Positions 16,327 to 53,252 of a stretch of 64,000 nt of DNA are shown here, one piece after another. The notes below the pieces were generated by a model. That model ran no database searches, was not told the origin of the DNA, and saw only the letters and a list, made by a program, of their open reading frames with translations. Source of the DNA: Limisalsivibrio acetivorans (GTDB taxonomy: Bacteria > Chrysiogenota > Deferribacteres > Deferribacterales > Geovibrionaceae); the NCBI RefSeq assembly GCF_000421105.1, contig NZ_ATWF01000001.1, positions 1,561,407 through 1,625,406 of the forward strand, read 5' to 3'. The translations under genes were made by a program, and so were the position numbers. The stretch's first letter is position 1. Every line of letters begins with the position of its first letter.

Positions 16327-16764
16327 ATGCTCAATAAATTCAAAAATATGGTTGGCAAAGGCCAGATAAAAAGAAAACATCCCAGGGCGGACAGCAATTT
16401 TCGGTTGTGCGTCTCAGTATTTGAGATGGACAAAAATTCCGGTGTTAAAAAGTCCGGCAAATGTTTTATGGCTATGGTTAAAAACTTCAGTGCAGGTGGA
16501 CTTTGTATAGTACATGGCAACAACCTGCTCATCGATGAAACTATAGAGATTGGAAACAAGCATTCTCTTAAGCGTATGGAATGCGTTAACTGCCCTAATA
16601 TGGCATTAACTGCTGATAACTTTGCCAGCGAGGTGATTACTGGTAGGGTTGTGTGGCGTACGCATAAACTCTGCGGAATAAAGTTTACAGATATAAGGAA
16701 GAAGGATCAGGAACGTATTGAGGACATGGTAATGAAGATCCTCACCGGCGACAGTAAGGGGTGA
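16327..16764 (+). CDS. PilZ-domain protein (cyclic-di-GMP receptor)
   Basis: A 145-residue protein with the two PilZ ligand motifs: RKHPR (RxxxR, about residues 16-20) and NFSAGG ([D/N]xSxxG, about residues 56-61), followed by the beta-barrel segment ITGRVVWRTHKLCGIKF. This predicts binding of cyclic-di-GMP and a switch role in motility, adhesion or polysaccharide output. The sequence CVNCPNMALTADNFA inserted before the last strands is less usual. It stands alone; its 3' side faces the hairpin repeat array, and a palindrome beginning nine bases after its stop may also serve as its terminator. Confidence 0.88.
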   Translation: MLNKFKNMVGKGQIKRKHPRADSNFRLCVSVFEMDKNSGVKKSGKCFMAMVKNFSAGGLCIVHGNNLLIDETIEIGNKHSLKRMECVNCPNMALTADNFASEVITGRVVWRTHKLCGIKFTDIRKKDQERIEDMVMKILTGDSKG

Positions 16765-16772
16765 GAAAGGGA

Positions 16773-16860
16773 GAATAATTTCCATGGATGGAAAATTATT
16801 CAGATAGATAAAAATGGGTTTTTGAGGGGCTGTTAAGGGGTGGTTTGTTCCCTAATATAA
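16773..16860 (+). repeat. Repeat array, vestigial unit 0 (hairpin plus tail)
   Basis: A near-perfect palindrome (GAATAATTT...AAATTATTC around CCA-TGGA-TGG, 16773-16801) resembles the first hairpin of the full units in its CCA/TGG core but has different outer arms. It is followed by a tail (16811-16860) almost identical to the tail at 17311-17360. The three central hairpins of a full unit are missing, so this looks like a unit that lost its middle. Confidence 0.65.
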
Positions 16861-17092
16861 TCTATGGAATTTACCATCCATGGAAATTCCATTGCTGTTC
16901 GGGCAGGGAAACCCTGCCCTCTCGTACTTCCGGCTACGTGAATTGAGCAAAGCCCAATTCAGCTACGCCTTCAGAGCCAACATCCGTGTTGGCTTTATTC
17001 GCTTCAACCTTTATAAATCCCAAAAATGGGTTTTTAAGGGGATTCTAAGGGGAAAGTTTTCCCTAAAAATTTCCCTTTAGTCTTTATTTTAT
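16861..17092 (+). repeat. Repeat array, full unit A (five hairpins)
   Basis: Contains in order: hairpin P0 (16864-16892; ATGGAATTT pairs with AAATTCCAT around CCA/TGG), H1 (16901-16919; 8-bp perfect stem GGGCAGGG/CCCTGCCC, loop AAA), H2 (16939-16961; TGAATTG/CAATTCA plus GC/GC around AAA), H3 (16975-16994; AGCCAACA/TGTTGGCT, loop TCCG) and a tail hairpin (17045-17080; 11-bp stem with one G-T pair) followed by a T-rich stretch. No known element is recognised. The 66-codon ORF inside is discussed under rejected items. Confidence 0.85.
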
Positions 17093-17386
17093 CTATGGAA
17101 TTTACCATCCATGGAAATTCCATTGCTGTTCGGGCAAGGAGACCTTGCCCTCTCGTGCTTCCGGCTTCGTCAGACCAGCAAAGCTGTTCTTCCTTTCGCC
17201 TTCAGGGCTTCCATCCTTGGAAGCCTGTTGCGTATCAACTTTATTTGCATGATTAGCATAAGCTTTCATGGGTTAAGGCGCACTACACATCAATCATTAT
17301 AATTATCTTCAACGTGAGTTTTTGAGGGGCTGTTAAGGGGTGGTTTGTTCCCTAATATAATCTATATATAATCTATGGAAATTTTA
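17093..17386 (+). repeat. Repeat array, unit B (diverged, with insertion)
   Basis: Core aligns to unit A without gaps through hairpin H3 (P0 17095-17123, H1 17132-17150, H2 17170-17192, H3 17206-17225). Stems differ by paired changes: H1 has GGGCAAGG/CCTTGCCC, H3 has GGCTTCCA/TGGAAGCC. About 75 extra bases lie between H3 and the tail, which is of the type seen at 16811-16860 (17311-17360). Confidence 0.8.
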
Positions 17387-17616
17387 TCTATGGAATTTAC
17401 CATCCATGGAAATTCCATTGCTGTTCGGGCAGGGAAACCCTGCCCTCTCGTACTTCCGGCTAAGTGAATTGAGCAAAGCCCAATTCAGCTACGCCTTCAG
17501 AGCCAACATCCGTGTTGGCTTTATTCGCTTCAACCTTTATAAATCCCAAAAATGGGTTTTTAAGGGGATTCTAAGGGGAAAGTTTTCCCTAAAAATTTCC
17601 CCTTAGTCTTATTTTT
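17387..17616 (+). repeat. Repeat array, full unit C (near copy of A)
   Basis: Nearly identical to unit A at a constant offset of 526 bases (P0 17390-17418, H1 17427-17445, H2 17465-17487, H3 17501-17520). Its tail stem (17571-17581 with 17596-17606) is a perfect 11-bp pairing followed by TCTTATTTTTT, a good intrinsic-terminator shape on the plus strand. The tail preceding C matches the tail preceding A, so a segment tail-core-tail was duplicated around unit B. Confidence 0.85.
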
Positions 17617-17701
17617 TACAAACTTATACTCGAAATTAGTCACTAATGTATTAGTCTTGCGCTTATGCGCCACATACCTTTTAGAAAAGTATGCAAAATA
17701 A
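17617..17701. other. Intergenic remainder between repeat array and pgk terminator
   Basis: No gene seen. Contains two small imperfect inverted repeats, GACTAATACATTAGTGAC on the minus strand (complement of about 17638-17655) and GCGCTTATGCGC (17660-17671). Whether they belong to the array is unclear. Confidence 0.4.
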
Positions 17702-17723
17702 AAGCGGCCCCTAAAGGCCGCTT
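17702..17723 (-). terminator. Intrinsic terminator of the gap-pgk operon
   Basis: AAGCGGCC/GGCCGCTT 8-bp stem with a six-base loop; on the minus strand it is followed by a T-rich run (TTTATTTT). It lies 22 bases after the pgk stop. Confidence 0.85.
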
Positions 17724-17745
17724 ATATATAGTTTGAATTGATTAT

Positions 17746-18912
17746 TTAGCCCAGTATCTCCACACCGGGGAGCTTCCCGAATTCAAGATACTCAAGAGAT
17801 GCTCCGCCACCTGTGGATATATGGTCGATTTTGTCTGCGATGCCTGCCATTTTCACTGCGGAGACGGAATCACCGCCGCCAACAACGACTGTGGCATCAC
17901 TATCACCCAGAAAGTTTGCGATGGCAAAGGTTCCTGCGGCGAACTGTTCCTTCTCGAACACACCCATGGGGCCGTTCCAGAGAACAGTTTTGCACTCCCC
18001 AAGGGTCTTAGTGTAAAGCTCGACGGTCTCATGCCCGATATCGAGCCCCATCATATCATCGGGGATATCCGGATCCCCCACATCGATACCTTCAGGAGAG
18101 TTAAACTCCTTTGCAGCAACGTGGTCCACGGGGAGAAGAAGCTCAACGTTCTTCTCCTTCGCCTTGGCAAGGATTCTATCCACAGTATCCTTCTGGTCCT
18201 CTTCCACTAGCGATTTGCCCACATTTCTACCCATAAACTTGAGGAATGTATAGGCCATCGCACCGCCGATAAGGATCCTGTCCGCTCTTTCCATAAGGGA
18301 TTCGATAACACCTATCTTGTCAGAAACCTTGGCTCCGCCTAGGATAGCCGCAAAGGGTTTGTCCGCACTTTTAAGAAGCTTTTCGAAATAGCTGATCTCC
18401 TTAGCAACAAGGAAACCCGCACCCTTTTCTTCCATTTTGGCCGCAAGGCCGTAAACGGAGGCGTGCTCACGATGGCATGTACCGAAAGCATCATTGACAT
18501 AAACTTCTGCAAGCTGCGCCAGTTCATCAACGAATTCGGGATAGTTCTTCTCTTCCCCTTTGTGGAAGCGAAGGTTTTCGAGGAGGGCAACCTCGCCGTT
18601 ATTGAGCTTTCCGGCCGCTTGCGCCTCGGGACCGATACAGTCTGCGGCGAAGGTCACGGGGAAATATTTTTCTGATATATAGTCTGCAACAGGCTTGAGC
18701 GACATCTCCGGTACACGCTCCCCCTTCGGCCTGCCGAGGTGGGAGGCTAGGATAAGCTTTGCACCCTGACTGCGGGCATATTCGATGGACTTCATCGCCT
18801 CCGCAATGCGGGTATCATCCTGTACCTTGCCGTCTTTGAGGGGGACATTGAAGTCCACCCTCATAAAAACTTTCTTACCTTCGAGCTGAAGGTCGGTTAT
18901 GCTCTTAGCCAT
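17746..18912 (-). CDS. pgk: Phosphoglycerate kinase
   Basis: Reversible ATP-forming transfer from 1,3-bisphosphoglycerate in glycolysis/gluconeogenesis. Motifs: [16 protein letters not shown] (residues 13-28), HLGRPKG (about residues 59-65), [14 protein letters not shown] (about residues 190-203) and the C-terminal [12 protein letters not shown] and [12 protein letters not shown] nucleotide-site segments. Length 388 is standard. It follows gap after 15 bases and ends the operon at a strong terminator. Confidence 0.97.
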
Positions 18913-53147: not shown

Positions 53148-53157
53148 GCGATGTAAA

Positions 53158-53242
53158 CCACCGTCTACCTACGCCGGCATTACCCGGATCAGGTTCATAG
53201 GGTATATCTCAGCCCGCACACTTGCGAGCACCCCCACGGTTG
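53158..53242 (-). promoter_or_regulatory. TPP (THI-box) riboswitch aptamer
   Basis: On the minus strand the conserved THI elements are present in order: GGGGGTGCTC, CGGGCTGAGATATACCC, then ACCTGATCCGGGTAATGCCG and GCGTAGG, closed by an outer stem (ACCGT with ACGGT). These are the thiamine-diphosphate-binding elements CUGAGA and ACCUGA..GGNUAAUNCC. It controls thiC-thiE-thiL. Confidence 0.96.
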
Positions 53243-53252
53243 AACTTTTGTT

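Follow-up and report, generated by a model that had tools for sequence, protein, structure and literature searches.

The array and its flanking genes

Within the window (the whole 64,000-nucleotide stretch of the Limisalsivibrio acetivorans genome analysed here), a PilZ-domain gene and pgk converge on the stretch 16773-17616, with stop codons at 16764 and 17746. We found that the array in this stretch comprises three units and one fragment, with structure far above chance. The features of the locus are as follows.

16327..16764, plus strand: PilZ-domain gene; its stop codon is 9 bp ahead of the array
16773..16801, plus strand: J-module hairpin (GAATAATTTCCATGGATGGAAAATTATTC), with the loop CATGGATG on the plus strand at 16783-16790; previously called a vestigial unit
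16814..16856, plus strand: h-type tail module (TTTTTGAGGGGCTGTTAAGGGGTGGTTTGTTCCC)
16861..17092, plus strand: unit A, modules A-C-D-E-F (repeat, BLAST, module scan and covariance model)
16864..16892, plus strand: P0 hairpin of unit A, with CATGGATG on the minus strand at 16875-16882
16901..16919, plus strand: H1 hairpin of unit A (GGGCAGGGAAACCCTGCCC; fold and covariation)
16932..16969, plus strand: H2 hairpin of unit A; the closing helix is an invariant GGC/GCC
16973..16995, plus strand: H3 hairpin of unit A, with CACGGATG on the minus strand at 16981-16988
17044..17080, plus strand: tail (F) hairpin of unit A (repeats and fold)
17092..17356, plus strand: unit B, modules A-C-d-g-I-h, with minus-strand loops at 17106-17113 and 17212-17219
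17357..17386, plus strand: broken, incomplete P0 sequence separating unit B from unit C (repeat family D3)
17387..17618, plus strand: unit C, modules A-C-D-E-F, 97-99% identical to unit A, with minus-strand loops at 17401-17408 and 17507-17514
17571..17606, plus strand: tail (F) hairpin of unit C (inverted repeat I6)
17625..17697, plus strand: fragment of module K (..GTCACTAAT..GCGCC ACATACCTTTTAGAAAAGTATG), outside the stretch first annotated
17703..17731, minus strand: probable terminator of pgk (AAGCGGCC..GGCCGCTT), beyond which the array is located
17746..18912, minus strand: pgk, convergent with the PilZ-domain gene

The initial annotation had proposed a tandem array of multi-hairpin units at this site, and direct repeats and folding bear this out. 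Direct repeats of 237 nt begin at 16854, 17085 and 17380, and a covariance model matches the units at 16861, 17092 and 17387. The fold of unit A has an energy of -80.8 kcal/mol, compared to -52.9 +/- 4.5 for shuffled sequences (z = -6.3 as RNA and -7.1 as DNA), and the P0, H1, H2, H3 and tail hairpins are located where they had been placed. Units A and C, described as near-identical, share 97% of their positions, whereas unit B, described as diverged, is approximately 61% identical in an ungapped comparison and has different H2, H3 and tail alleles. The proposed vestigial unit stands only in part. The covariance model does match a remnant on the reverse strand at 16730-16804 (E = 1.8e-5), but most of this remnant is a separate hairpin module, J (16773-16801), that has approximately 35 occurrences genome-wide and is followed here by a tail module.

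Stems vary while pairing is kept

We found that the stems of the units covary. In an alignment of 42 host units, both partners differed in one or more copies for 15 of the 32 base pairs, and 98.1% of pairing cells were paired, versus 87% in shuffled and at most 54% in slid alignments, with diverged H1 alleles forced into a single alignment frame. The H3 stem variants (GCCAAC/GTTGGC, GGCTTCC/GGAAGCC and GGCTCCC/GGGAGCC) are discrete alleles rather than single steps. P0 is either TATGGAATTT-ACCATCCATGG-AAATTCCAT or GGGAAATTC..GAATTTCCC, and its centre is fixed. The covariation may be neutral, produced by template switching that corrects imperfect palindromes, and we include this in the explanation favoured below.

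The host contains many copies built on one module order

The array is one of many in the host. BLAST with unit A gave 94 matches in the 2.97 Mb genome, on both large contigs. We counted at least 155 P0-type hairpins (88 of type A and 67 of type B) and at least 52 arrays; these host copy numbers come from searches and fetched stretches and are lower bounds. Almost all of the GGA-type hairpins (230/238) were intergenic. When approximately 50 fetched loci were scanned for 20 module sequences, 838 matches were found, together covering 37 kb. Of five control stretches of 20 kb each, four contained no modules and one contained a K-L-M-N-O set.

The order of the slots was constant: P0-H1-H2-H3-I-J-tail-K-L-M-N-O, with O reversed. 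Individual slots can be absent, and a slot can be filled by alternative hairpin alleles (P0 by A or B; H1 by C or c; H2 by D, d, e or P; H3 by E or g; the tail by F, f or h). The K-L-M-N-O composite (~420 bp; L042, L056, L058 and others) consists of further hairpins downstream. In K, L and O, A.C changes outnumbered G.T changes (91 versus 19), as if the minus strand were RNA. At one locus (L054), a CRISPR array with the repeat GTTCACTGCCGCACAGGCAGCTTAGAAA (type I-F-like) adjoins a repeat array, upstream of an IS30-like gene.

The repeat is confined to one family

By BLAST, unit A is nearly absent from 60 relatives. The hairpin core TTCCATCCATGGAA occurs 64 times in the host, 36 times in G004, 22 times in G007 and 9 times in G001; it was never found outside the GTDB family, and a reversed control gave 0 in every genome. 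With the covariance model built from host units, we obtained matches in 10 of the family's 11 other genomes, spanning four genera and in some cases limited to a single copy; 48 genomes outside the family gave none. The other genera keep the P0-H1-H2-H3 layout with different stems and spacers, and copy number varies greatly among species. The blastn and covariance-model searches that had been suggested as a check thus gave many dispersed host copies, clear covariation and matches in most genomes of the family.

Arrays accumulate at the 3' ends of genes and differ between orthologous sites

We found that the arrays prefer gaps between convergent genes. Host arrays lay in 30 convergent, 19 tandem and 3 divergent gaps, versus 7, 52 and 35 of the other gaps (Fisher p = 5e-11 for convergent); the comparison gaps were at least 60 bp and drawn partly from array neighbourhoods, and genes were called with a simple hexamer model. 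Array edges were closer to stop codons than to start codons (median distances 46 and 126 bp). On the pgk side in the window, at L181 and L199, and in further cases, the element is situated past a terminator that is already there.

Comparison of orthologous sites revealed gain or loss, changes in copy number and exchange of stems. At one site in genus g3, G002 is continuous, G011 has an additional 604 bp with two to three units, and G005 has approximately 0.4 kb with one unit, all directly 3' of the same terminator. Because the comparison does not fix polarity, the empty site in G002 could be a precise deletion. At orthologous sites in g2 the element is retained, but its copy number differs or one stem has been exchanged for another (GCCGCAGTAAATGCGGC in G004, GGCGGGGTAAACCCGCC in G007). 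L137 and L149, orthologous sites in related species, have kept the element with a different stem. Exact tandem copies are spaced 129-191 bp apart, which points to local duplication. At L143 and L180 the local tandem copies include the end of the flanking gene; such copies show duplication, not transposition.

We looked for enzymes that might move the repeat. In the three genomes richest in it (G000, G004 and G007) there was no candidate Y1/RAYT transposase (PF01797) and no reverse transcriptase (RVT_1), and we rejected both a RAYT/REP identity and spread driven by reverse transcriptase. One relative does have a Y1 transposase gene, with GGCGGCATTTCATATGCCGCC palindromes on its flanks (L078; G008:C6, ~285219-285479). 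This is an ordinary RAYT-REP system of that relative and is unrelated to the mosaic repeat.

Seven IS30-like genes are in or beside arrays, encoding 321 aa (L041, L042, L054 and L070) or 323 aa (L050, L058 and L068). They raise the possibility that the repeats are remnants of IS-derived non-autonomous elements mobilised by resident IS30-family transposases. However, the IS ends (CCTGGATTCAATAATTAAG...ATTCAGG) are unlike the module ends, and the IS copies are inserted within palindromes of the tail or K modules. The 323-aa element splits the same K palindrome (CATACTTTT..AAAAGTATG), the type to which the fragment at 17625..17697 belongs, in three of three cases, which suggests palindrome-targeted IS30 insertion. 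Since these elements have ends of their own and interrupt the palindromes, they are passengers that inserted into the repeats later, and we consider an origin from IS30 extremely improbable.

The hairpin loop resembles a CsrA-binding site

On the strand that runs against the unit direction, the loops of P0 and H3 have the sequence CA-N-GGA-(T/A)-G, where N is any base, and they sit on unrelated stems. The H3 loops of other genera are ATGGAT, AGGAT, AAGGAT, ATGGAA, AGGAA, ACGGAT and similar, and of the 41 distinct H3 hairpins that could be scored outside the host, in four genera, 36 had GGA (counted by hand). In the consensus that CsrA/RsmE binds with high affinity, the hexaloop ANGGAX is seated directly on a stem (PMC4005645), and the P0 and H3 loops have this form. 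The array loci (277 kb) contained 161 hairpins of the CsrA type, whereas control sequence (100 kb) contained one.

The same hairpin precedes flagellin genes of the clade, approximately 40 nt (30-57 nt) before the start (e.g., tgcgcAAGGATgcgca, gtcggcACGGATgccgac and tgggcATGGAAgccca; loci L207, L208, L210, L211, L214, L215, L221, L224, L225 and L227). Its stem, N and X are free, and a second GGA is at the ribosome-binding site. The flagellin leader of the host carries gcgcAAGGAAgcgc. Flagellin mRNA leaders are the classic target of CsrA, and a hairpin together with a GGA at the ribosome-binding site is how CsrA control is laid out in FliW-CsrA bacteria. These CANGGA(T/A)G hairpins are a candidate family of CsrA-responsive leaders across the order.

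All genomes of the GTDB family have csrA, as do most relatives without the repeats. Host CsrA retains L4 and R44. The host csrA gene comes after fliW (fliW-csrA, L057:1892-2601), and a repeat array begins at 2620, approximately 20 bp past the csrA stop codon. Because this array is just 3' of csrA, the csrA transcript may run into CsrA-type hairpins. If GGA-strand transcripts are made, their loops should, judging from sequence, bind CsrA.

The core hairpins show no strand preference

If the hairpins acted as RNA, the two strands might be distinguishable by gene orientation or by wobble pairs, and we compared both. In tandem gene pairs, sense versus antisense counts for the GGA strand were 4 versus 13 (host), 20 versus 5 (g2) and 5 versus 4 (g3 and g4 together). 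Wobble cells were nearly balanced, with 241 G.T versus 225 A.C overall and approximately 49 versus 53 in the core hairpins. Lacking a consistent sense strand and a wobble bias, the repeats are taken here as DNA first. The tail modules F and f had more G.T than A.C cells on the plus strand (30 versus 13), and because of this lean the tails may matter as terminators. The idea that the core hairpins belong to a structured RNA family, one of three offered initially, found no support, since wobble was equal on both strands and gene orientation revealed no sense strand.

Comparison with known repeats and RNAs

NIMEs of Neisseria combine palindromes with units of 30-160 bp in mosaic intergenic arrays of 200-2700 bp (PMC3898611). 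The repeat resembles them in that palindromes alternate with repeat units in intergenic arrays, in the host and in other genera. It differs in occurring in another phylum and in having approximately 12 slots in a fixed order. Moreover, the NIME palindrome dRS3 (ATTCCC-N8-GGGAAT) has constant arms and a variable centre, whereas the mosaic repeat has a constant centre, CANGGATG, and variable arms; its P0 does not match the dRS3 consensus.

REP and BIME sequences are palindromes that occur outside genes in many copies, frequently inverted and combined into composite arrays, and complementary residues in their stems take alternative forms (PMC2817692, PMC3733652). The mosaic repeat is likewise high-copy, mostly extragenic and made of palindromes in composite arrays. 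In contrast to REPs of 20-40 bp, however, its units are approximately 230 bp to 1 kb, and unlike RAYT-linked REP/BIME it has no Y1 transposase in its richest genomes. Inspection of one alignment by eye revealed no GTAG/CGTC tag beside P0 or H3; bases adjacent to H2 vary between GTAG and GAAG. REPINs are REP doublets tied to RAYT, whereas the repeats here are multi-hairpin mosaics without RAYT. What they share with the mosaic repeat is that they are non-autonomous, hairpin-forming and dispersed within one lineage (PMC3116915). The organisation is thus closest to that of NIMEs and BIMEs, and the defining features of both (the dRS3 consensus and RAYT) fail.

The hairpins are like those bound by CsrA/RsmA in CsrB/RsmZ sRNAs and flagellin leaders in that a stem carries an ANGGAX hexaloop whose N and X can be any base. 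They differ in being dispersed, in lying on either strand relative to genes, in having sparse loops and in that their transcripts are putative.

Several other identities were rejected or judged unlikely. At the Rfam gathering score there was no known ncRNA in the array or related loci, and relaxed thresholds gave chance-level matches only. (A TPP riboswitch, 71.9 bits, is at 53148-53245 of the window, minus strand.) There was no DNA match that would indicate plasmid or phage origin. A coding repeat is doubtful, as the 66- and 63-aa ORFs had no Pfam match, though the frame from CCATGG is open in 28/38 copies. An integron attC site is unlikely given the module order and the absence of cassettes. 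As far as Rfam and RAYT-linked REPs are concerned, the array is, as stated initially, neither REP nor a known ncRNA. The repeat is thus neither solitary nor a match to a described Rfam family. Text searches of the literature found no such repeats described for the phylum and no paper tying CsrA sites to REPs, although such absence is not proof.

Explanations for the array

We think it probable that the array belongs to a non-coding palindromic DNA repeat, mosaic in structure and specific to the family, that was spread and remodelled as DNA; in general kind it would resemble the BIMEs of enterobacteria and the NIMEs of Neisseria. Hairpins would form in single-stranded DNA, and would be duplicated and swapped between copies by template switching, slippage and gene conversion. 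Insertions would survive mainly between 3' ends, where they would be harmless, and a hairpin-recognising protein would hold the loop constant while the stems drift. Several points count against this explanation: the loop is conserved beyond the need of a purely neutral palindrome, the three richest genomes yielded no enzyme that could mobilise the repeat, the empty site in G002 may stem from a precise deletion, the copies at L143 and L180 show duplication rather than transposition, and the GGA strand in g2 is mostly sense (20/25), which a pure DNA model leaves unexplained. Among the three original suggestions, a non-autonomous mobile element with stem-loops is the best supported, by the dispersed copies, the empty and filled site and the accumulation at 3' ends. 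Unexpectedly, a binding array for a hairpin protein is supported as well, since the repeats share the CsrA-type loop of the clade; the binding itself is predicted. Overall, the three suggestions were partly supported.

The loop might instead be the reason for the repeats. P0, H3, I and J would then be dispersed CsrA-binding hairpins whose GGA-strand transcripts, from 3' UTRs, read-through or antisense transcription and with ANGGA(U/A) loops, form a distributed sponge or tune the preceding messages. The shared loop on unrelated stems in four genera, its fit to the ANGGAX consensus, its enrichment in array loci, the flagellin leaders (including that of the host), the conservation of csrA in the family and of the two residues in host CsrA, and the array 3' of csrA are all consistent with this. 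However, tandem gene pairs have no consistent sense strand, the GGA strand has no wobble bias, and csrA is also found in most relatives without the repeats. In addition, CsrB-type RNAs have densely spaced binding loops, whereas the P0 and H3 loops are approximately 100 nt apart. We consider this reading unlikely, and a stronger version, in which read-through of hundreds of mobile CsrA-binding hairpins titrates CsrA as a genome-wide sponge replacing a CsrB-type RNA, quite doubtful. It is very unlikely that the arrays are structured 3'-UTR RNAs that terminate or attenuate transcription or stabilise mRNA ends, roles that have been proposed for REPs. That arrays abut stop codons, that the structure is very stable and that the F and f tails lean to G.T would fit such a role, but the core hairpins lack a strand preference, several elements are beyond an existing terminator and copy number differs greatly between species. 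We therefore return to the DNA repeat as the preferred explanation, with CsrA binding as a specific predicted consequence or function of it.

These results add a lineage-wide mosaic hairpin repeat to a phylum for which the literature searched holds no such description. It is unusual for a repeat to evolve by trading discrete stem alleles among slots whose order is fixed. As the genomes lack RAYT, the usual suspect for such repeats, the mode of spread becomes a testable question. Because the loop is identical to that of the clade's flagellin-leader CsrA hairpin, the repeats also yield a specific and cheap prediction, that they bind CsrA; if this holds, it would link them to a global regulator.
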